DNA of 64,000 bases from Sclerotinia nivalis (Eukaryota > Ascomycota > Leotiomycetes > Helotiales > Sclerotiniaceae). The stretch is from assembly GCA_029531795.1 (NCBI GenBank), contig JAPEIS010000002.1, positions 3,038,001-3,102,000 on the forward strand, written 5' to 3'. Each line of letters begins with the position of its first letter. Positions within the stretch are counted from its first letter, which is position 1. The notes under the pieces are model-generated. The model made no database searches, was not told where the DNA came from, and saw nothing but the letters and a program-made list of their open reading frames with translations. Of the stretch, positions 1,497 to 43,328 are shown piece by piece. The translations under genes and the position numbers were made by a program.

Positions 1497-2072
1497 ATGT
1501 TGAGTGAACATGGCCTCTTCATCCCATCGTCCGAACTATGTTACAACGAGCTTGCATCCTCTTCAGCTCTTGGCCGGCATGCAAGAACAATATCCCAGAG
1601 TCTTCATAGTGCGATACATTTTGTTTTGGGCGTAAGCGAAGGGGAGGATCTCTTCTTCCGGGAATCATCAGTGGACGCATCCTTCGCATCGATGAGAGGC
1701 GACATCAACACCTCGTATCTAGGTATGTATACATCCTCCGGTCCTTGGTTTTCAGCAAATGAGGAGCCAATCCCACATCTACTAAACTCGATGGTAAGCT
1801 AGCCTTTCTGTCTATATATTGGGCCAGCCTATGGCCACCAGCGAGTGTACCCACTCCGTTGAATTAGGGCAGCAGTGCACAGGATGACTGCGTAGTTTGT
1901 GTGATCAGGTCAATCATGGTTGGGGATGTTGAGTCCTTCAGGTTGTATAAATCACCTCATTTCTTCGAATTTTAGCAGGAGTCCTCGGAAGAAGAAAGCG
2001 AAGTAGTGAGTCTGCTCGTTCATCGTCATGGCGATCTCATTGGAATGCATGCTGGAAATAGCCATTAATGCT
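1497..2072 (+). CDS. possible small hypothetical protein, one intron
   Basis: Not recognised. An open frame of about 100 codons starts with ATG at 1497. It can be spliced from a GTAAGC donor at 1794 to a TTTAGCAG acceptor ending at 1978. This continues with a Ser/Glu-rich stretch (ESSEEESEVV) to a TAA near 2072, giving about 129 residues. The 185-bp intron is long for this window and no domain is visible. Alternative reading: non-coding transcript or chance ORF. Support is limited to the plausible splice signals. Confidence 0.25.
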
Positions 2073-2186
2073 TGTTGGCTTGGAAAGTCAATCTTCAAGT
2101 GACCAAGAATAACCTATAAGACTTCCATAAAAACCTTGAAGTGTGCCTTCGTTTGTAAATTAACATTATCATTAAATATGGCATTT

Positions 2187-3257
2187 TCAATCCCCACTAA
2201 TCTTCGCATGCCGAAAGTATTTCATACCAACCCAAGCAACAACTACCCAAACCCAAGCCATTACTGTCGTCAAAATAATCAATGCAGGATAATAACCCAC
2301 AATCGGTAATGTTGGATCATCCTCCAGCTCAGGAGGAGCATAAGGAGTTTCTCCAACATCCCAAGCCCAACTCCATACCCCTAGACATGAACCCATCCCA
2401 GTAACGAACACAATCCATGTTACAATGAGTATAACCCAGCCCCACCATTCAGTTTCCGAGTAATCACATTCTGCATCTGGTAGAGGAAGTGGACTTGCGG
2501 CCAGTCCACCGATGGATAGTGGGGATTTTTGTTTCTGAGATGGTCGCCGACGAACTACGGAGCCAGCGCCGGGCGGAAAGTATGAATCTGAACTAGATGA
2601 TGGCGTTGGTATACGAGCTGCAGCTGGCAGGCTGTGTGATGGAATACTGAGCAGGTCTTCTTCATCCGTAGTGGATGCATAGGTTAAAGTAGGACTTGTA
2701 GCCGTCGTTGGTGATGTGATGGTATGGTCATTAGCCCCCATGGGAAGAGTTTTGATAGGTAGTAGTAAGGTATTATTACTTCGGTTGGCCAGACCTTCCA
2801 TGGAAGGCCGAGGAGTTTCGTCAGATATTCCCAAGCCAAGACCACTGACAGGCCGAATATTTTCCGGTGAAGTAGGACTTAGCAATGCATTGCTAGAGTA
2901 TTGGCTGTGCTGATTGGTATCGTGAGGAATTATTTTGGACTCTTTCCGATCTCGTTGTGCCCCTCGACCAAGTAATGCGGCCTTCCTCAATGAACCTTTC
3001 CTCCTTCTAGTCTTTTGCTGCTGAACTGCAACAGCCATAGCTCTACTGGTTGATCTTTTTGGCGATATTGGTTCATCACGAGGCGGAGACTGTTGACTGC
3101 GGGGCCCCGACAAGAACGATAGTTTGGACATGATACTTCCAGATAGTGTCCTTCTGTGGCCCCCGGACCTGGTTTCGGATTGGATTTCTTCAGGTTCGTG
3201 GACTAGTTCTCCAGAATAGTCATGTAAAATACCGTTTGAACCAACCTCCTTCTCCAT
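2187..3257 (-). CDS. conserved-looking fungal membrane protein with two C-terminal TM segments
   Basis: Function not recognised. The 356-residue, intron-free frame has a long disordered N-terminal half rich in Ser, Pro and basic residues (RRRKGS, RRRPSQKQK). Around residues 268-345 two hydrophobic Trp-rich helices are seen: WWGWVILIVTWIVFVTGMGS and a second ending WVWVVVAWVGMKYF. A short acidic, Pro-rich loop (PPELEDDPTLPIVGYYP) separates them. The pattern, a cytosolic tail plus a helical hairpin with a YYP motif before helix 2, resembles small ER or GPI-synthesis accessory subunits such as PIG-P, but the resemblance is only topological. It is transcribed away from the zinc transporter and shares a 750-bp upstream region with it. 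Confidence 0.7.
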   Translation of the reverse strand: MEKEVGSNGILHDYSGELVHEPEEIQSETRSGGHRRTLSGSIMSKLSFLSGPRSQQSPPRDEPISPKRSTSRAMAVAVQQQKTRRRKGSLRKAALLGRGAQRDRKESKIIPHDTNQHSQYSSNALLSPTSPENIRPVSGLGLGISDETPRPSMEGLANRSNNTLLLPIKTLPMGANDHTITSPTTATSPTLTYASTTDEEDLLSIPSHSLPAAARIPTPSSSSDSYFPPGAGSVVRRRPSQKQKSPLSIGGLAASPLPLPDAECDYSETEWWGWVILIVTWIVFVTGMGSCLGVWSWAWDVGETPYAPPELEDDPTLPIVGYYPALIILTTVMAWVWVVVAWVGMKYFRHAKISGD

Positions 3258-4005
3258 GATTTCGTAGTATTCTTGGAACAGATGTTACGAAGGCGAACTC
3301 ATATTCGAGAAAGTGTGTATAGCGCTTGTAATACCAAGCCTGTACGGAAAATGTCAAGGACCAGAAAGCTCGACCACACTTGTCTGATTGTCGGAGGACA
3401 CGTGTTTTTGCAACTTGGAAAATTCAGACTCGTCTTGAAATATCCCAAAGAAACTCTTCAAAGAAGCACACTTGCTCAGGCCGAATTCGTTGCTCGTACA
3501 AAGGTTGTTGAGCATTCACGCACCTAAGGAAACTAGGTGTTTTGTGTGCAGTGAATGACAGCCTCAGATATCGATAATGATGAAGATACCAGGTATATGA
3601 TATCTCTGTACGTCTGATGATCCAGGATTCAACAAACTTTTGTGTTGAAGGACATTTAGGGATGTGTTCAATCAATCCATTTTTGATGGTTTTGACGGAG
3701 AAAGCTTTGGCTATGGGGTCTAGAGCTTTCTTAATGTCAAATGAGGTTGAAATGAGGTAAAATCTCGCTTACGTAATTCAATAAATCGCATAATGCCTGG
3801 GCGGTGAAACATTTCCCCTGGTCTAAAGATCCAAAAGGGGAAGTAAGTAAATTACAGATCCATTTATATATCACAACCAATTCTACATGACGAATTACGA
3901 AACGTTTCGTGCCAATTGCGCATAATAATAATAGATTTGAGGATATCAGCGACCAATTAATGAACCGTGTTTTCATGAAACCTCAAAATTACTAGATATC
4001 AAACT
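3258..4005. promoter_or_regulatory. divergent promoter region between the two-TM protein and ZRG17
   Basis: This 748-bp region lies between two genes transcribed away from each other, so it should hold both promoters. Short open frames here (e.g. 3424-3675, 3737-3976, minus) have no recognisable protein character. I see no specific binding site I would defend. Confidence 0.4.
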
Positions 4006-5473
4006 ATGGCTTCGAGCCTTCCTATTCCAGCACCTCCGAGGACACCCACTCCACCCACTCCTATTCCACAAGAGCAAGGCAGATTTGCATGGGATCATCA
4101 AGATGACACTTCACGAACCGTGCACTCAGAGATTCTTTTGGATCCAAATGCTCTTTCGCCTGCAATTTCAAGCACAGGTCGATTTGGCTCAATGCGTACC
4201 CCGATGTCTCCTCCTTCAGGTTTCTCAAGTCCAAACCTTCAACCGGATGGAATGATGAGTGTGCCACCTACCAGAGGAGCTGCGAATCCTTTTAACTTTC
4301 AGACTCAAACTATAAAAGATGCGCCAATAGCCAAATCTGTACGCGAACCTCAAACGATCATATTAGATCTTAACTAACACAATGCACCAGAACATTGGCC
4401 AGCGAAGAGGTCATCGATACAAACACAGTAGTGTCTCGACTCAACATCAAATCTTCCTCGAACCACCTCCTCGAGCACCTCTCGCCCTCCCAGCTTCCCT
4501 ACCCATTCCCACATTCAAAGAAGCATGGAGAAGCATGTCCAAAGAACAAACTACTCGAATAGCCTGGTGTCTCTGCCACGCCCTAATATCCGCTTTCGTT
4601 CTTTACAGCGCGCAAGGCTCTCTTGCCCTCACCGCACTATCCCATCTTATATTCTTCGATGCCGTATCAGCAACGATCTGCGTCGTGGTGGATGTATTCT
4701 GCAATTTCGAAGTATGGAAACGCTCCTCCATCCGTCATCCATTCGGACTCGAACGCGCAGAAGTACTAGCAGGATTCGCCATGTCCGTTTTCCTCCTCTT
4801 CATGGGGTTTGATCTCATATCCCATAATCTAAAACATGTCTTGGAAGGACTAGGCGACCATGCTCCTCATCATCCTCATTCTCATCAACGAGTTAGCCCC
4901 GGCTCTGTTGATTCCGCTGCGTTACTCTCAATTGTAGCAACTCTCGTCTCAGCAATCGGACTTAAAAACCACGCACGAATAGGAAAAGCAATGCGTTTTG
5001 CCTACATATCATTCCTCCCCTCCGTCCTCTCCAATCCCTCGCATTTCCTAACTCTGAGCTGCAGCACCATCATGCTTCTCCTTCCTCTTTTAACAATTTC
5101 CCTCTACATCTGGCTCGATCGTCTCCTCTGCACTGCCATTGCCCTTTCCATGTTCCTCCTCGGAATCCGTTTAGCTACCGCTCAGGGGCTCATGCTTTTG
5201 ATGTCCTATTCCGGCGCTGGAGTTTCAGAGGTCATGAAGGAGATCGAATCCGAACCATCAGTATCTACCGTTGAAGAAGCGAGATTTTGGCAAGTACACT
5301 ATGGATTATGTATGGCGAATCTGAAATTGAGAGTCAGGGGAGACGAGGGAAATGTAATAAAATTGAGAGAGAGAATCAAGACGTTGGTTAGGAATAGACT
5401 CGGTGGAGGATATGGAAAAGGTGGAGGGATGAAATGGGAGGTTACGACACAATTGATTGTTGATGGGAAATGA
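4006..5473 (+). CDS. ZRG17: Zrg17-type cation diffusion facilitator (zinc transporter)
   Basis: CDF-family membrane protein; Zrg17 partners with Msc2/Cis4-type CDF proteins to carry Zn2+ into the ER/Golgi in yeasts. CDS join 4006-4338 and 4391-5473, 471 residues. The 52-bp intron 4339-4390 has donor GTACGC, branch CTAAC and acceptor CAG. Splicing restores the family run AKSNIGQRRGHRYKHSS. A Pro-rich disordered N-terminus is followed by about six hydrophobic segments with the conserved stretches WKRSSIRHPFGLERAEVLAGF, a His-rich loop (DHAPHHPHSHQRVSPGSVD) and a C-terminal domain (EEARFWQVHYGLCMANLKLRVRG). Without the intron the frame hits a TAA at 4375, so splicing is required. Family membership is clear; the ER/Golgi role is inferred from homologues. 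Confidence 0.9.
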
Positions 5474-6084: not shown

Positions 6085-9032
6085 CTAAAACAAACTCCAT
6101 CCACCCCTTCCATTTTCCTTTCCGCCCGGTCCTCTTACTCCCTCTTTTCCATGACTGCCTCTTCCATTCTTCGCTCCTCTTTGTGGTCTTCTCGCTTCCC
6201 CATTATCTAACTCGCGTAAATCTCTCAGCCCCTCCATCTTTCCTAATACCAACTCCAGTAACTCCTTTCTCCTAATAACTTCTAGATGTCTCTCAACCTT
6301 CTTATCCTCTCTTGCAAATCTCTCTACTTCTTCTTTCGTTAATCCTCTTCCTAATCTCTGATCCAATTCCCTAGGGAACTGATAGAAAAATTCGGAGAGG
6401 AGTTCGACGTTTAGGAAGAGAACGGCCGTGGAGGTGAGTTTAGTTGCGACGACGTCAAGGAAGACTTCGGGGCAGTAATATTTGTTTTTGAGGGAGGCAC
6501 ATTGGCCAGATTTGAGAGCCTTGAGACGCATGGCCAGAAGGGCAGCCCGGTCGCGGAGGAAGACTGCTTCACGGCCTGGTGGGATTGTTAGTGTCTGATA
6601 TAAAAACGGCTATAAGAGAAAGATGTGAACATACCTTTCTGCAATAACGCAGAACTGAATCCACCGGCACCACTAGCATCGCCATCAACGATAATCTCGC
6701 CCTTTCTAGCTTTGTCCACAAAGCTCATGACATCTCTCAGCTTCTTTCTTCCACCAACATGTTGCTCCAAGTTCTTTGACGCATCTTCACAAGCTTTGAG
6801 CTCATTCTTTAACACAGAGGTAACGTTCTCTCGACCTCGTGACCATTCGCTATCTTCAACATCAATTTCGAACTTATATGGTTTGATGCAGTTCTCAACT
6901 TGATCACTTGTACTGTAGAACCTTTCATTCAAGATACCAGCTGCAGCATCGGTGATAGCTTGACGAGCGAATGGATGAGTTGCAAAGGTTGATTGAGATA
7001 TGAGACGATCAATATGGGCTTGGATTGCATTGGCCACGACTTGAGTTGCAAGACGACCAATACCAAGTTTGGTGAGGGCGGAAGTAGAGGCATCAAGTTT
7101 ACGGTGCCAGAAGAGGGAGTCAGGATCAGCGGTTGGGAGCTCAGCAAGTGAGTTGGGTTCTGGTGGTGAGGGTGAAAGATCCTGGATAGGTCTGTTCCAG
7201 TAACGTGCTGCTAAGAGATCTAATACTCGTTGATCAAGCTCCTCTTTTAGCATCTCGCGGACTTGTGGCCTTCCAAAAGTTTCAGCAAATTCTTTGAAAG
7301 AATGTTTAAATGCATCGAGACTCTCGGCGAGATAAGATTCTGCAGACAGAGGGCGGTCGTTGTATTGGACCTTAAACTCATAAGTAGCCTCTTCAAGGTC
7401 TTGGTGAATAGCATCACTGGTAGTTTGAAGGCTCGCCGCCATGGTTTGTTCGAGTACATGCATAAGTTTCTTACGGAGGGTTGTAGTGCCAACATTTAAT
7501 CCAGCATCAGGTCCATACTCCATAGGATGAGACGAGAAGAATGCATGTTCATTTTTTATGATAGCTTCCGAGATGCTTTCGCTTCCTGCCTTGAACAATG
7601 ATCTGGTTTGTGATTGCTGTGGTGCTCGTGATACAACACCAACATAACCGAGCCTTAAGGGGTATTTTCTGTCATTGAGGATGGCGGCTCCTCTAGCAGG
7701 ATCGACAAGGTCCATCTTTGTAACAACACCGATTGTTCGTTCACCTCGTGGGTCAACTCTTCGGCTTGCTCGCAAAGCTGTGGAATTGGCTAAATCCACG
7801 TCTGCAGCAGAAATTGCAAGAATGACATTAGGAGGCTGAATATACTTGTCGCACAAATCGGAGATTTTTTGCTTCAATTCCAAAGGCTGATTTTCACCAA
7901 CAACTTGAATATATCCCGGTAGATCGATGAGGGATAAGTCGGGAACATGGGGCGACGAGATGGTCAACTGAATTGGATCATCGGAAACACATTCCGTGTC
8001 AGGAACAGCCAAGTTCAATTCCGTCAGCGTCCTCTGGATGTGGGAGAAATCGGTAATCTTTCCTAGGCCAAGAGCAGGAAACTCTCCATATTCCGCTTGT
8101 GAATCAGGGGTATTAACGAGAGTCAACTCTATGGGCCGTCGTGTAACCATATTCGAACCCTTGGGCAGGAATTCATGACCAACGATTGCCTCTAGTACAG
8201 AGCTTTTCCCCGATGATTGTGAACCAATAACAACGATTGAGGGCAAAGTAAGGGCGTTCGACTGCCCCACAGTTTGCAATATGCTTCTGATCTCGATCAT
8301 TTTCTTAGTCAAAACCATCATTTGGTCATCCCGGGCAGCAACTGCTGGAGACCTGTCGTCTTCCGTATATTGGTCATACCCATAGGCGGCAGCACTCCCT
8401 CCTGCAGCCGCAGCTACCACTCTGCTTTGTTTAGGTGGTTCCCCGCCAGGGCCCCCACCCCCACCTCCACCATTTCCTTCCCCAATCTCCTCATGGATCC
8501 GTAATACTTTTTGCATCCACTCCGGTAATTCAACTGATTCTTTTGTTTTTTCCCATCCTTGTCGTGTTTGACTGGCAATATCTTTTGCGCTGCCAAACAA
8601 ACCTCCTGCTACGCCAGATACAGTATTCGTCGTTTGAGTGAAGATGTCTGCAACGTAATTACCAGCCTCTGCAGATATGTAAAATTAGTCTTGTCTCTAG
8701 ATAAGGGAACGAGTAAACTAACGAGTGGCCTGGTACTGAATATATGCTAGACCACCGACGGTCACTCCAGCGAAAAGTGCGGGTATTCTTGCAAACTTTA
8801 ACAATATATTTGGTAGAATGCGAACAAATGAAGCATTTCGAACAACTACAGCATTCGAGAATGGTGTATGCCCAGCTGGCCATAACCTTCCTCTTGCAAT
8901 ACGAACGGCCGATTCTGATCTGAGAAGACCGCCAGCGGTAGATACCGCCTTATGATGGAAATGCCTGGCAGACTGTGAGTTGATACGTTGAGCCGCGGGC
9001 AGAAGCCTCGCCGATAAGAGCCTCCCACTCAT
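6085..9032 (-). CDS. MGM1: Mgm1/OPA1 mitochondrial inner-membrane dynamin GTPase
   Basis: Large dynamin-related GTPase that fuses mitochondrial inner membranes and shapes cristae. Exons 8723-9032, 6635-8668 and 6085-6575 (introns of 54 and 59 bp) encode 944 residues. The N-terminus is an Arg-rich presequence followed by a hydrophobic anchor (IPALFAGVTVGGLAYIQY). An Ala/Gly-rich stretch (VVAAAAGGSAAAYGYDQY) sits where the rhomboid protease Pcp1 cuts homologues to make the short form. GTPase motifs are visible: GSQSSGKSS (G1), TRRPIELTL (G2), DLPG (G3), TKMD (G4). The C-terminal exon gives the GED-like end (DVVATKLTSTAVLFLNVELLSEFFYQFP). Splice junction 1 gives YQATQAGNY, as in fungal Mgm1. It is head-to-head with DUG3. 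Confidence 0.96.
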
Positions 9033-36255: not shown

Positions 36256-37869
36256 CTACGCACCCTCAAGCACACCCCTCCTAGCAAAGACCACCTCCCT
36301 CTTCTCCAAAACCGCCTCCTTCATAAAAGGACTACGCCCTCTAATTTCCTTTCCCCATCTAAAAACCGCAAATGGCGTCGCCACCAATGCCAAGCTCAAG
36401 AATGCCAATAGCGAACTCGCCCATTGAAATTTAAGATCCGTATACATACTCGTACTAGCTAATGGAATAGAAGCCAATGCCGCATTTTCCACCAGGCCAG
36501 CAGCACCTAAAGCGCTGGCTGCATATTTACTATAGGCATCTACGAGATAATTTGCATTACTGATGATGATGGTCGAGGTACCAAAGCCGACAAGTGAGAG
36601 ACCGAGTGTGGGGATCATCCAGTGGATGGTAGAAATGGATGTCCAACCATACAGAAACATTCCGCCCGTAACACCTAAGAAACCGCCAATAACAGAGGGA
36701 TATAAACGTGCTTCAGGGATGGGAGTACCCGGCACCTCTGTATTTCGCGCGGCGGAATCGTAATACCAGGAATTTGTATACATGCAAAGCGCACAACCGA
36801 TACATTCGCCAATAGCGATTGCAAGCTGGACATAACCTGCTTGAAGACTATTTCAACCGTAAAGTTGGGAGTAGACTTGCCCGACGGATTGTGCGAAAAG
36901 GTAAATTGTTCCGAGACTGAAGGCTGCCCAGAGGGTGGCGATGAAAACGACGGATTCGGTGAAGAGCATGTAGAGAGGTCTTTGAATGCTTTTGATGAGA
37001 ATTTGATGGATGGGTGTTTTGTGAAGTTCTTCTGCTGTGTATGCCTCTTTTCCGTCTTTGCGTAATTGTTTCGCTTTGGCAAGTAGAATAGCCGAGCCGC
37101 GACTTTCCGGAAGACAGAATATGAAGAGAGGGAAGAAAGCCGCCGTCCAAATTAGCTCAATATGACCAATCCAACGCCAATCAAGATACTGAAGAATAGC
37201 AGAACCGATAACAGGTCCCATACTCGTTGAAACAAGATATGTAGTCACATACAAACTAATCGGCACACTCCTTTCCCTATCGTCTCGAAAAACATTCGAT
37301 ATGACACCCGCCGCCGCATTACTCAAAAGCTGCACGCAACCTCCACTAAAAAATCTCACCACAACCAGCGTTGCAAAATTCTTTGCAAATCCAATTGGAA
37401 TCAATGAACACACAAACAAAAAGTACGTGCCAAGAAACACAGGTCTAATACCAAAATCCTCCATAACAGGAAACAAGACAAGTGAGAATATTGCGCCTCT
37501 AACTCCCCATGATGCAATTGGCTAATAGGAGTTAGGGAAGTGTGAATCGGAAATGCCAAATTCTTTATTGATGGGGTTATGGGCAACGGATATGATGGTG
37601 CCGTTCATGGAGGAGATGAAGCTGGCGAGGAAGGCGAGGGTTATCACGAGCCATTTCTTACGAAGAGACCAGTTGAATGGATCTTGGGGGCCTAATAGTC
37701 CATTCCAGGTTACAATTGTAGGTTCTGGATTGGGAGATTGTATTGGTTCTGCTATTACTGTTAGTTGAGATTGGTCGAATAATTTTGGGCTCGACTAACG
37801 TTCAGTATGAGAGCCAGCTATCTGTATCTCATTTTCGCCTGTCCTGAGCTCCTCCATTATGATTGACAT
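36256..37869 (-). pseudogene. major facilitator (DHA1-type) transporter gene with two Trp-to-stop changes
   Basis: Reads as a fungal MFS drug/polyamine-type H+ antiporter from ATG 37869 (MSIIMEEL) through a 48-bp intron (37752-37799) to 36256, 521 codons in a single frame except for two stops. Family landmarks: PDPFNWS-like QDPFNWSLRKKW, FGISDSHFPNSY, PVFLGTYFLFV, VRFFSGGC, GPVIGSAILQYLDWRWI and FLYGWTSISTIHWMIP. TAG at 37522-37524 sits where the family has Trp (SHFPNSY-W-PIASWG). TGA at 36853-36855 sits at the Trp of YG-W-N. No intron can remove them without deleting conserved sequence. The first change is CpA-to-TpA on the plus strand, the RIP pattern. It lies about 190 bp from a RIP-damaged transposon. 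Confidence 0.85.
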
Positions 37870-38060
37870 ATTCGAATAGCTGGAAAGAAAGATGAACAAA
37901 TGATACAATGAGAGAGGTCGATGCCAAGGGAAAGCGACTTAGGTAGCTACCTTTCGTCCTACCAAAGGTTTCAAACAAATGAAGTTGATTGCCATTGTTT
38001 TGAATCGAACTCGTAATTAAAACTGTTATATACTCAAATAGGAAGGTAGAAGAATATATA

Positions 38061-38118
38061 ACGTGGTTTATCAGTGTGCGGGTCATATCAGTGTGTGGGT
38101 CACTTTCATCTCAATTCA
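38061..38118 (+). repeat. pogo element terminal inverted repeat, left
   Basis: 58 bp matching the reverse complement of 40957-41014 with two transition mismatches. It contains two direct copies of TATCAGTGTGYGGGTCA, 17 bp each, back to back, which may be transposase binding sites. Confidence 0.9.
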
Positions 38119-38684
38119 CTCTTTCAAACCCATATTATTCAACAACAATTAAATCAATTGATTAAAACTATAAAGATTCTAATAATCTAGGATCTATTAC
38201 ATTATTTTGACAAGTCCTTGTATTATGTCTAGTCTTTCTACATTTACTACAGTATCGACTAGAAGATGTTTCCCCATTAGAATTCCCCCCTTTTTGACAC
38301 TCGTTGTGTTGAATCTGAATATCAATTTCTTGCTGAGATAATATATTGGTAGCCTTTTGTTCAATAAGCACTCCTCCTTGATGTAATTGAGTTTTTTTTG
38401 TATATCGATGTTTGCTTAATGCCTTATTTGCTGCTCGAAGTATACGAATCTCTGTATTTAAAAGTGTATTTTCATGTGCTAATCTTTTTGTACCTTTAGC
38501 TAAAGCTAATACAGTCTCGAATATAGGTATAGGAAAGTTTGATTAATGATGAGCCATTCGAGATCTTACTAAAGTCGATTGTGAAAGAGTTTCAGTTGGG
38601 TTGTGAGGGGTTTGAGAAGTCTATAAATCTTGATCGAAAGAGGGGGGAGTAAGTGTGCGAATTCGAATATCTAGTTTCGAAAGT

Positions 38685-38697
38685 ACAGCTTCAGGAT
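38685..38697. repeat. target-site duplication, copy 1 (nested retroelement)
   Basis: 13-mer ACAGCTTCAGGAT, identical to 39787-39799 on the other side of the nested insertion. Both belong to the split pogo transposase codons for DPEAV. Confidence 0.92.
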
Positions 38698-39786
38698 TGA
38701 TTGATTGATTGATTGATTGATTTAACGTCCACACTGAGTCTAAGACTATCTAGGACGGCTAGGGGCTCTATGAGCTCCTAGTTGATGCTATGGGGAGTTG
38801 TATGCTAGCTAACATACAGTTTGTATAGTTTGGGTTTCTTTTCAACCCTTGAAATGTTGATTGAAGGCAAGTGAAAACTAATACTGGAGAACAAAGCCCG
38901 ATATCTTCATTCTCTAAGACCTTTCCTTCCTCGCTCTCCCTCTACCCCTTACTAATTAAAGCATCCCACTGATATAATCTTCTTTTTCGACCCAATCTGC
39001 TATTCCGATACCACTTCCCACAAAGGTCAAAAGTCATCTCCGTCAAGATTACTTCCAACACAGCAAAAGGGTCCTCATACTAATGAAAAGCAACTGGAAG
39101 GCACCACTCTCTTCAGCTCGAATTCATTCATTAGCTCCTTTGCATGCCTTCCTAGATGTAATGATCTCCAGCTTTGTTTGAATGTAAATAATCGAAACCG
39201 CCGAATGGAATATCGGTCATTTGAATATAATGATAGTGGGGCGTAGCCCTAACCCTACCCACATACACACAAAAAATATTTTCGTAAAATCAAGGAAAAG
39301 GCGTAATATTGTATCGATGCCCAAAGTATAACATTAATTGATAGATGATAGTATTCTCTGTTTCATGATAATCGTAGTGTTAAAATGAATGTATTTTCGA
39401 TAATCGATTATCGAAAAAAGGTATAAAATGCGAATAAAACAATAGTAAATTCCGTATCGAAAAGACCTTTCTAGAATAGAAAGGACTTACTAAACGTATT
39501 ATACCTCGTATTGAGGTAATAATCGATGGCAGATGTTGAATCTAACCAGGGCTTCTGTAGCCATCGTCTGTATTTTGGGTTGATGTTCGTTCATCCTTTC
39601 GAAGATATTGATACTGTAAAATCGTAATAACTCCTCCATCGTGAATATCGTAATCGGGAAACCCTTTCTCTCTCTTCCAATGTATCCGATTCCATCAAAT
39701 AACTCAATCTTAGCTCTGCAGACTCTCAATAGAGAGCTGGAGGTTCGTAGAGGGCACCACGTACAGGTGTTGAGTCTTCGCCCTCC
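38698..39786 (-). mobile_element. nested 1089-bp non-LTR retroelement, non-autonomous, with 5' HDV-like ribozyme and (ATCA)6 tail
   Basis: The insertion interrupts the pogo transposase between the codons for DPEAV and LSKLD. The 13-mer ACAGCTTCAGGAT occurs on both sides (38685-38697 and 39787-39799). Removing one copy plus the insert restores the transposase frame, so this is a target-site duplication. On the minus strand the element begins GGAGGGCGAAGAC and ends GGACGTTAA followed by six ATCA units (38698-38721). A variable-length TSD and a simple-repeat 3' tail are the marks of target-primed reverse transcription. The first 86 nt form an HDV-like ribozyme, so the 5' end appears intact. No reverse transcriptase is encoded, hence non-autonomous. 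A perfect 24-bp palindrome (39394-39417) and a two-unit telomere-like CCCTAACCCTA (39247) lie inside. Confidence 0.85.
39701..39786 (-). ncRNA. HDV-like self-cleaving ribozyme at retroelement 5' end
   Basis: Numbering from 39786 (nt 1) down the minus strand. P1: nt 1-7 GGAGGGC pairs with nt 32-38 GCCCUCU (one G-U). P2: nt 12-17 ACUCAA pairs with nt 80-85 UUGAGU, extendable by a G-U pair. P3: nt 19-21 ACC with nt 29-31 GGU, loop of 7 nt. P1.1: C26-G41 and G27-C40. P4: nt 48-55 CAGCUCUC with nt 60-68 GAGAGUCUG (one bulged U, loop UAUU), extendable by CUC/GAG. J4/2 is CUAAGA, placing the catalytic C at nt 74 (39713) directly before the P2 3' strand. Order and spacing follow the HDV double pseudoknot. 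Cleavage is expected 5' of nt 1, which is exactly the target-duplication junction. Confidence 0.85.
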
Positions 39787-39799
39787 ACAGCTTCAGGAT
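39787..39799. repeat. target-site duplication, copy 2 (nested retroelement)
   Basis: Second copy of ACAGCTTCAGGAT, immediately upstream (minus strand) of the ribozyme's first nucleotide. Confidence 0.92.
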
Positions 39800-40956
39800 C
39801 AAATGGTATTAAATCTGTTTCTCGAAACTTTGATTTCATATTCTGAATTGTAATTGATTTTTAGTATGTAGTTTTAAAAGTTATAAAGAATTCAACTTTC
39901 GAAATATGATTGATATGTGCTTTGATAAACCTATCAATTTGAGTATTATATAAACGTTTCAGACTACTAAAACAGTTAATATCAAATGATTGAATTAAAT
40001 GATTTGAATATGATGGTAATTTTAAATAGATAATATCATTCTCTTTGCAATACGATTGAAAAGGTATTGATTCATAACTTTCATATCTATCTAGTATCAA
40101 TATTCGATATTTGCCCTTTCTTCGATTCTTAGTATGCTTATCGAAGTGTTTCAATTATTCTAAATCTGTTTTATTGTTTGTTCATTTATTAAATGTAGGT
40201 TTAATAGCTCATTCCGTAGGAAAGTCGGTTTCGGTATACCAATTGGAAAGATGAATCTGTCCTTGAACTATTAGAAATGGGGATATAGTTTTACTTTCCC
40301 CATTTCCATATATTATTGTTGTAGCCTATTCTCGATTGTCTGATTGTACTGATTTACTTTTATTGTATCTCTCAGCATTAGTAACAATTATTGCAGTATA
40401 TATAATCCCTATCATAAAGCTTGTTTCGTCGAAATTGTAGAAATCGCTGTCGAGAATACCATATTTCGCTTGCATATTCGAAACCAATCGAAACCACTCT
40501 TCAATAAACTTAAGATCTTCGCAAAAAGCTTTTTGAAAGTTATAAATACAACTAAAATATATCTTTAATTCGATTCGACGCTTTACGAATCGATATACCC
40601 AGAGCTTCCCAATACACTTTGCACCCCTCGATTCAAGAATATGATTCGCTATATCTTCCACATTTCTGAATTTAGATAGAAATCCTCTCATATCCATATC
40701 GAGTATATACTCAGAAATGATATTCTCTTCTAGTTCTGAAAGATTATAAGATTTAGGTCGATATTCGGAGTGAGGAGTAAAACCATTAATTCTACATTGT
40801 AGTATTGTATTCGAGATATTATACATCTTTGCAATTTTTCGAATGTTTATTTTTTTGTCTTTTTGAATAGCTTCGATAGCAAGGAGTATACGGGCTTCTT
40901 GATTATTCGAATTCATTGTAGATTGTTGATAAAACGCGTGTTGAAAGAGAAGAGAT

Positions 40957-41014
40957 TGAATTGAGGTGAAAGTGATCCACACACTGATATGACCCGCACA
41001 CTGATAAACCACGT
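40957..41014 (-). repeat. pogo element terminal inverted repeat, right
   Basis: Mirror of the left terminal repeat; one of its two internal 17-mers carries a G-to-A change (GTGTGGATCA), consistent with RIP. Confidence 0.9.
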
Positions 41015-41016
41015 TA

Positions 41017-43328
41017 GTGCTTATTGTAACTGTTGTTTCCCTGGGGACATCACGAGTTTTATCATCACGTGATAATATAAGGATCCTCCAGTCGAATGCT
41101 CACCAAACGACAGAGCCAGCAACCTAACAAGTATCCCAACTTACCTGAGAAACCACAATAAGATAAGAAATGTCGAACTGCACCCTCCTCATCACCACAC
41201 CACATCACATCACATCAAACATCGCTCTCCCTCCTTCCATACCTTATCCCCCACCTTACAAATTCCATCTAATCCCCCAACCCATTATGCAGAACCCTTA
41301 GTTCTATACCTGTACTTCCATCCCCAACATCCCCTCAAACCATCCCCGCACCCTTCCCTTCAACACTCAATCCAAAACTCCAATTCCTATCCATCACTCA
41401 TCCCACACAATAACATAATCCACTGAATCCTGTGAATCCCCTTATACCTAATGAAACCAAACCAAATCAAATCAAATTCCTCACCCACATCTCATCACAT
41501 CCCATCGCATCCAAGAACTCGGACCCGAGTCAACTCTCACCTCACCTACCCTCCGCAACCTCAACTATAAACTCCCCCATCAAATAGAAAGTACATACAA
41601 CTCCCGAGATCCCAAATCAGAATTATATGTACAGTATACCTAGAACTACTAGGTACACACCATCCAGCATCCACATCCACATCTCCTCTCCATCTCCAAC
41701 TAAAACGAAAAAAAAAGAAGTACAGTAGCGTCGCCCCACCCAACCGAACCGGTAAATCTTCGGCACAAATACTACCCCGCATCCCGTCCTCCGTCCGGGT
41801 TTATCCGCCTATTAGCACCGCCTCATTTTACTTCATACGAAGTAGAGTCATCTCCTATCCTGAAACGTTTTAAGGTTTCTCAAGATCTCACCTAGTAAAC
41901 AGCGCTGGAGCTATCTGTAGTTATTTGCGAAATGGTTTTGTGCTGGTATTTTTGTTTATTAACTATTTTCGAGGGGTGAGTGTGAGGGCGAGGGTGAGAT
42001 TTTATTTACGATACGGGCGATGTAACTTCTATGATTTTAGTGAATATATTTATTTGCGATGCGAGCGGCTGGCGATACCTATGATTTTAGTGAATATATT
42101 TGATGCGGGCGATGTCGCTAAAGATGAAGGGGGTACGTATGGTGGATTGAATGAAGCTTTAGACGTGGCACAGCACACACCAACAGCACAGCAGTACAAT
42201 CAGTAATTTTCAAATATTTTTTTCTCATTGATTTTATTCCATAACATGTATCCATGAATTTCCTCCATTTGATCAGTTCAGGTTCAATACTAAAAAGGAA
42301 AATGTAATATGACTCGATACAATCAATCATAACAGAGACCTTCTTTCCATCCACCAGCCCCTTCACATTCATCCTCTCGGTTCTCTATTTTCGCAAACCA
42401 AGTCCATTCATTGCATCCCACCCAAATCGCGATCAGAAAAAAAAAAAAAATCAAATAACAATCCCCATTTAGCAATCCCCCAATTTCCCTCCCATTCCAT
42501 TGCATCCCATCTAACTCCCTAAAAGCAACCCCAATATTGTAGTGAGACTGTGAGAGTAGAGATGGGCTAGAACAAGAATCGAAACCAAAACCATGAAACC
42601 GAAAATAGACAACTTTCGTAATGAAGACAAAAAACACGCTTTATCATTCAAAAATGATGAACCTTCCTCCGCTGGCATCAAAAATTGAGTTTCCCTCCCA
42701 TTGATACATACGTCAACTACCATATCCACCATACAAACAAGTTGTAAATAAATTTACCACAGGCAAACGGGTCCAGAAATGGAAACTATTCTGCTCGCTG
42801 CAAAGGAGTATCATTGAAACTTGAGGCGATTGGGAACCAATTGAAAGCAGCAAGTTCAAATAAAAAAAGACAAAAGAAAATCATAAGTATGTTCATGTCG
42901 ACCCATTAATCATAATAAAAGGATTGTCGGGATTGTGTAAAAAACGACGAGATGTCTTGAAACGCTCCACCAGGTAAACCAAAGTACAATAATGAAGAAA
43001 AAGAAAACACCTTGCCATTTAACCTAGACAGAGAGAAAGAGCAGTTACGACAAAATGAAGAAGTATGAACGCTTTCTGAATGCTGCGAGGGAAAGTTTGT
43101 TGATCCAGATTGTGACACAAGAAAATGGCGCTGTAAAAGACTTTTGTTCACTATAATTGTGGTGACATTGGTTTCGAAATGCCATCAAAACAATACCAAT
43201 CGCGGGGCAATTGATGAAATTCGATTCATCACCGCTATAAGAAATAACTTTGGGTACAAAATGTAACCGTGGGGTCATTTAATATACTCGAAGTGAAATG
43301 ATCAAGCTGATGGTACAGTGGATGTAGA
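41017..43328. other. 2.3-kb gene-free region right of the transposon
   Basis: C/A-rich low-complexity sequence (repeated CACATCACATC, 41200-41520) is followed by an AT-rich part. A 23-bp unit containing ATGATTTTAGTGAATATATT occurs twice 50 bp apart (42029-42051 and 42079-42101). A 93-codon frame across it (41925) is probably a by-product. No gene called. Confidence 0.4.

Follow-up and report, generated by a model that had tools for sequence, protein, structure and literature searches.

The 64,000-nt stretch of Sclerotinia nivalis DNA analysed here (the window; contig JAPEIS010000002.1, positions 3,038,001 to 3,102,000) contains a short insertion whose first 86 nt had been read by eye, in a first-pass annotation, as a hepatitis delta virus (HDV)-like self-cleaving ribozyme, which raises the question of whether an RNA of this class sets the 5′ end of a fungal retroelement. 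From the sequence of the site, the 5′ ends of its genomic copies and the covariation of its stems, we consider it probable (roughly 0.86) that these 86 nt form an HDV-class self-cleaving ribozyme and that it defines the 5′ end of a non-coding SINE-like retroposon.

The element and its candidate ribozyme

The insertion, which we number from its own 5′ end, has the traits of a SINE-like element mobilized by a LINE, being non-coding (no ATG-initiated open reading frame (ORF) of at least 50 amino acids on its own strand), flanked by target duplications and provided with the 3′ end of a LINE from the same genome. It lies in a DNA transposon, presumably of the Fot1/pogo-like class, whose weak HTH_psq match falls just below the cut-off of that family. 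The features of the locus are as follows.

38044–41031, minus strand: host DNA transposon with inverted ends of 79 nt each (38044–38122 and 40953–41031), 87% complementary
38698–39786, minus strand: non-coding SINE-like element of 1,089 nt, nt 1 at 39786 (sequence read, genome copies)
38698–38722, minus strand: (TCAA)n tail of the element (sequence)
38698–38769, minus strand: 3′ end common to the element and the coding LINE A, 93% over 72 nt
39787–39799, no strand: target site duplication, 5′ copy, a perfect 13 bp, ATCCTGAAGCTGT, ending at nt −1
38685–38697, no strand: target site duplication, 3′ copy, the second occurrence of ATCCTGAAGCTGT
39701–39786, minus strand: putative HDV-like ribozyme, cut predicted between 39787 and 39786 (descriptor, covariation, exact 5′ end of copies)
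39780–39786, minus strand: P1 5′ strand GGAGGGC, pairing with 39749–39755 (four pairs with two-sided change across subfamilies)
39749–39755, minus strand: P1 3′ strand GCCCUCU (same covariation and pairing evidence as the 5′ strand)
39770–39776, minus strand: P2 5′ strand GACUCAA, pairing with 39701–39707 (pseudoknot)
39701–39707, minus strand: P2 3′ strand UUGAGUU (covariation in the alignment of copies)
39756–39768, minus strand: P3 (ACC/GGU) with L3 UGUACGU, 3 bp and a 7-nt loop (sequence)
39714–39742, minus strand: P4 hairpin with UAUU loop, base-paired in two possible registers (double-sided changes)
39708–39713, minus strand: J4/2 CUAAGA with the candidate catalytic C at 39713 (sequence; C in each subfamily)

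We read the fold by the generally known layout rules of HDV ribozymes. The order of the nested double pseudoknot P1-P2-P3-P1.1-P4 is right, and 95.4% of the alignment cells are paired. P1 joins nt 1–7 to nt 32–38 in 7 bp, the first pair, at the predicted cut, being G-U, and GAA forms J1/2 between P1 and P2. The first-pass annotation had given P2 6 bp; it extends to 7 bp (GACUCAA/UUGAGUU), with one G-U pair in the window copy and UUGAGUC as the 3′ strand of the commonest copy. A single extra C (nt 18), present in every aligned copy, separates P2 from P3. P1.1 consists of two pairs, G23-C40 and U24-A39, in which nt 2–3 of L3 pair with 39747–39748, the two nt that follow P1. The C-N-R-A rule for the candidate catalytic C reads C39713-U-A-A in the window, and the commonest copy of each subfamily has CUAAG or CCAAG at this place. 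The remaining parts of the earlier reading, namely the 7-bp P1 from nt 1, the 3-bp P3 with its 7-nt loop, the 2-bp P1.1, the UAUU loop of P4 and CUAAGA in J4/2 with its C at 39713, were all found directly in the sequence.

For a search by structure we used a strict descriptor (7-bp P1 with ≤2 G-U pairs, 3-bp P3, L3 of 6–9 nt starting with U, P1.1, the base of P4, C-N-R-A and P2 of at least 5 bp), which was drawn up after the site had been seen and therefore favours it. The descriptor gave a single match in the two strands of the window, at 39786–39701; 60 dinucleotide-shuffled windows gave 15 matches, corresponding to about 2 per million start positions or about 0.25 per window, and none of 20,000 shuffled versions of the 86-mer matched. 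The minimum free energy of the site was unremarkable (z −0.76). Its most stable nested fold, in which nt 1–5 pair with CCUCC (−25.1 kcal/mol), competes with the HDV fold, for which P1, P3 and P4 together yield −24.6 kcal/mol before P2 adds about −6.0. The first-pass annotation had proposed a scan with Rfam HDV models, and this came back empty: at the gathering threshold the HDV families had no match in the site, the window or the copies scanned, and the site had none at E values up to 10. The Rfam HDV models are narrow, and serve as a library aid and not as a defining trait. Exact matches to the core pattern numbered 0 in the viral and prokaryote collections.

Genome copies, their 5′ ends and the covariation of the stems

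Searches were run over the 50.3-Mb genome (31 contigs). A query that carried 114 nt of flank, so that nt 1 lay at query position 115, gave 41 matches (40 of 280 candidates scored), of which one was the window itself and one matched the flank only; the remaining 39 begin at query positions 112–116. With the whole element as the query, nt 1 was the start of 42 of the 44 matches (scoring covered the best 40 of 439 candidates, which under-represents truncated copies). We extracted 30 full-length loci, no two of which have the same upstream flank. Target duplications were found in 29 of them, reaching nt −1 in 20 loci and ending one base short of it in 9, and are 11–16 bp long except at L038, where a 21-nt match takes in the tail of the preceding copy; in the thirtieth locus (L018) the duplication, read by eye, is followed by six extra bases before nt 1. 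Two expectations of the first-pass annotation, that the predicted cut falls exactly at the boundary between target duplication and element and that the ends of other copies coincide with nt 1, are thus borne out, the former by the 13-bp duplication that ends at nt −1 in the window and the latter by the 29 duplications that end 0–1 nt before nt 1.

An exact pattern for 5′ ends of the window type gave 76 matches in the genome and its reversed control 0, and 184 places matched a looser core pattern in which up to 3 mismatches were allowed, again with 0 in the control. Other subfamilies were sought with the looser pattern among the matches listed of these 184, a search that misses any head whose L3 or J1.1/4 differs. 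At the catalytic position, U replaces C in copies L044, L050 and L103. Two window-type elements, L024 and L038, stand in tandem (G000 C4:623452-625636), with an identical stretch of 14 bases in front of each, which suggests either two insertions into a single site or the duplication of one insertion.

The fold is retained in four subfamilies, among which P1, P2 and P4 differ by paired changes, so that the compensatory changes for which the first-pass annotation had proposed to look are present. The changes in P1 affect four adjacent pairs, each altered on both sides across subfamilies. The core patterns leave the 5′ strand of P1 unconstrained and, in its 3′ strand, specify no more than the two terminal bases, and 28 of the 29 copies fetched with them form all seven P1 pairs (best of four nearby registers), by way of three main helices, GGAGGGC/GCCCUCU, GGGAUGC/GCAUCCU and GGAGGAC/GUCCUCU. 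The pair at the predicted cut is G-U in 36 of 38 distinct rows and A-U in 2. P1 was demanded by the pattern or by the best-hit rule for most window-type copies, and its overall pairing of 99.6% is therefore inflated. Compared with R3, L118 (R4) has a P1 altered in both of its strands, with a largely unchanged, R1/R3-like core.

The model-fitted alignment contained 41 matches, 38 of them distinct; in the better P4 register 10 of its 30 pairs were double-changed, compared with 0–3 when the partners were slid by 1–3 columns, and the double-changed cells numbered 49 versus 0–9 with slid partners; the other P4 register gave 9 double-changed pairs. P4 itself has double-sided changes at five pairs in the better register and at four in the other. 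When 16 copies of the window type and of R2 were aligned with MAFFT, without model fitting, 8 of 31 pairs were double-changed versus 0–2. In a shuffling control, the double-changed cells and the covariation score exceeded all 500 shuffles in all three analyses, at least as many double-changed pairs as observed arose in 23 of 500 (better register), 57 of 500 (other register) and 92 of 500 (MAFFT), and pair types were no more numerous than in the shuffles. Because the rows of the alignments are related, independent events are fewer than the counts of double changes. P2 shows a double change from C-G to U-A at one pair, the same pair being broken in 13 of 38 rows, and the tip of P4 is broken in several rows; P3 and P1.1 have no double changes in the alignments and so carry no covariation support. 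Many of the changes in the copies are C-to-T or G-to-A, as would be expected for decaying fungal repeats. Together, the compensatory P1 changes between subfamilies, in copies of which most keep the core intact, suggest that the fold was under selection in the source elements.

Candidate ribozyme heads on different bodies

The same head begins a second SINE-like family (R3) and a 1.2-kb non-coding module (R2) that is joined to LINE bodies. R3, seen at L111, is about 0.87 kb long, has its own target duplication and has in common with the window element a 5′ end of about 115–123 nt (82%) and a 3′ end of about 200 nt (75%); no match was found between their middle parts. The LINE A 3′ end spans 95 nt at 85% in R3, next to 72 nt at 93% in the window element. 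The base before nt 1 in 13 R3 copies (L103-L104, L108-L117, L120) is A in 9 and T in 4, and window-type copies have all four bases at this position.

LINE A is coding, with endonuclease, reverse transcriptase (RT) and RNase H domains, and six of its copies start at the same 5′ point as L069. The LINE A, B and C set was given to the model except for L074, L076, L082, L086-L088 and L090, and it found no ribozyme in these loci. The strict descriptor, applied to 19 LINE 5′ regions, gave one match only (L082), which is antisense, AT-rich and chance-like, and within L069-L071 its sole match was the L070 head. LINEs A, B and C were therefore rejected as ribozyme carriers, neither model nor descriptor having given a credible head in the loci examined. 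The earlier proposal of an HDV-like ribozyme on a fungal retroelement stands, supported by the ends and the covariation, with its carrier refined to a non-coding SINE-like passenger that has a LINE 3′ end, no ribozyme having been found on that LINE.

The R2 head belongs to the 1.2-kb module, which lacks a long ORF and of which 23 of 43 genome matches cover the whole length. At L070 the module is joined to LINE B within ORF1, and a 13-bp duplication surrounds the whole chimera; this is the sole locus at which both junction and duplication were read. We considered L070 as a ribozyme-headed autonomous LINE and rejected this: its 3′ part is LINE B (99.7%), and other LINE B copies have a different 5′ end without a ribozyme, which makes L070 a chimera. 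The distance from the module end to a LINE B-type ORF2 is 440 nt in L070 versus 1,186 nt at C5:2227291, and that to the RT is 1,928 nt in L070 versus 134 nt at C16:802546, values that come from the coordinates of a few loci and assume no later insertions. At C2:678182 the body near the head comes from another family that resembles LINE B, at 54% amino-acid identity.

LINE B copies L084-L090 and L107 have a common 5′ end without a ribozyme. Copies free of stops lie on C8 and C6, with an ORF2 99% identical to that of the L070 copy, so LINE B has probably been active recently. L071 (G000 C9:2634000-2643500) contains a third LINE, with a 1265-aa ORF at 1580-5374 on the minus strand, and, on the opposite strand to the LINE, the start of an 18S rRNA gene at 7957-8509 (plus strand). 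RT matches that score the same as the L071 LINE lie on the small contigs C19-C22 and C26. This LINE may live in the rDNA spacer.

Proposed mechanism and relation to known systems

The putative ribozyme and the shared LINE 3′ end allow us to propose a route for the window element. It would be carried in transcripts that start upstream in host DNA; the ribozyme would fold during transcription and cut just before G1, so that the RNA always begins at nt 1, as the fold and the ends of the copies suggest. The LINE A machinery may then recognize the common 3′ end and the (TCAA)n tail in trans, and the RNA would be copied by target-primed reverse transcription, which is consistent with the shared 3′ end and the duplications. 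Because the cDNA would end at nt 1, new copies would abut the target duplication and carry the whole ribozyme. The heads of the R3 family and of the 1.2-kb module were probably passed on by template switching. A non-coding passenger would need no cap, so that a 5′-OH end should cost it little, and this would fit our finding a ribozyme head on passengers but on none of the three coding LINEs examined, a small sample.

A fixed start would also be explained by an internal promoter that initiates at nt 1, in which case the 5′ 86 nt would owe their conservation mainly to acting as a promoter or as a binding site for protein, and the RNA fold would be secondary or one of two functions, as in the trypanosomatid Pr77, which is both a promoter and an HDV-like ribozyme (PMC4035085). 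We regard this as unlikely. A promoter does not predict changes paired between two strands in P1, P2 and P4, nor a catalytic core in register with them, and a simple scan of the window element for an RNA polymerase III promoter gave one A-box-like match and no B-box-like match. That a chance fold happens to lie at the end of an ordinary SINE seems very improbable indeed: shuffled windows do yield occasional descriptor matches and the folding energy does not stand out, but the match begins at nt 1 of the element, fails to recur in shuffles of the 86-mer and is found again, with covarying stems, at the 5′ ends of R2, R3 and R4. Self-cleavage by an HDV-class ribozyme is the reading we retain.

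Fungi are already known to have HDV-type ribozymes, and animals and trypanosomes to have non-LTR elements headed by ribozymes. Li & Breaker (2017) describe 230 HDV variants in 26 fungal species, with cleavage at the base of P1 shown for two of them, note 11 earlier fungal examples and call the gene associations of the fungal variants widely variable (PMC5640933); the words retrotransposon and transpos- are absent from the main text of that paper. The candidate ribozyme resembles these variants, as that text describes them, in its HDV architecture and in the additional nucleotide that separates P2 from P3, which in theirs is mostly C, whereas theirs typically have C-G at the cut site in place of the G-U of the window type, and an E-loop that replaces part of P4, of which we recognized none by eye here, the comparison being by description only (PMC5640933).

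Among trypanosomatids, L1Tc/NARTc, ingi/RIME and SIDER elements with Pr77 likewise have a 5′ HDV-like ribozyme that also occurs on non-coding passengers; Pr77 is described there as common to LINEs and passengers, whereas our searches gave no ribozyme on the LINE with the common 3′ end, and the bodies that carry the head are unrelated (PMC4035085). The arthropod R2 ribozyme is similar in cleaving a non-LTR element at its 5′ junction or close to it (here the cut is predicted), and the short elements propagated by R2 are similar in being non-autonomous and moved by non-LTR machinery, as we propose here; by the account in PMC3774820, however, R2 is site-specific in 28S rDNA, whereas the window element has 30 different flanks at 30 loci, and, unlike the short R2 elements, it does not derive from any ribozyme-bearing LINE identified here. 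In Magnaporthe, MINE consists of a full-length WEIRD RNA and a 5′-truncated MGL, attributed to template switching (PMC2104539). This 1.1-kb full-length non-coding head on a 5′-truncated LINE, with its duplications, resembles the R2-type module, and Mg-SINE is like the window element in having a 3′ end in common with its LINE (PMC2104539). The word ribozyme is absent from the main text of the MINE paper, and WEIRD is likened here by description, not by sequence (PMC2104539). A paper on Botrytis retrotransposons (PMC8365987) has 0 occurrences of the word.

Our literature search gave no paper that joins HDV-like ribozymes to fungal retroelements; most subscription papers lie outside that search, and priority is not certain. 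As far as our searches show, what is new is the joining of the two and the modular use of the ribozyme by non-coding passengers. This suggests a role for fungal HDV-type ribozymes, namely setting the 5′ end of retroelement RNA. More tentatively, and with some doubt on our part, fungal HDV-type ribozymes might be mainly the 5′ heads of non-coding retroposons, as modules repeatedly fused by template switching to different LINE 3′ ends and so spreading independently of any one LINE, and the Magnaporthe WEIRD RNA and the published fungal variants might be the same. This genome pairs ribozyme-bearing passengers with coding LINEs on which no ribozyme was found, so that whether the ribozyme replaces a promoter can be asked directly, and in the same genome it can be asked whether ribozyme heads swap between elements by template switching.

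Elsewhere in the window, a major-facilitator transporter gene (36256-37521) has an in-frame stop between two open stretches of the same frame, possibly a sign of a pseudogene or an intron. In line with a host from the Sclerotiniaceae, a Zn2-Cys6 protein of the window is 89% identical to that of Ciborinia camelliae, 88% to Monilinia laxa, 87% to Botrytis fragariae and 86% to Sclerotinia borealis, and 94% to a metagenome protein.
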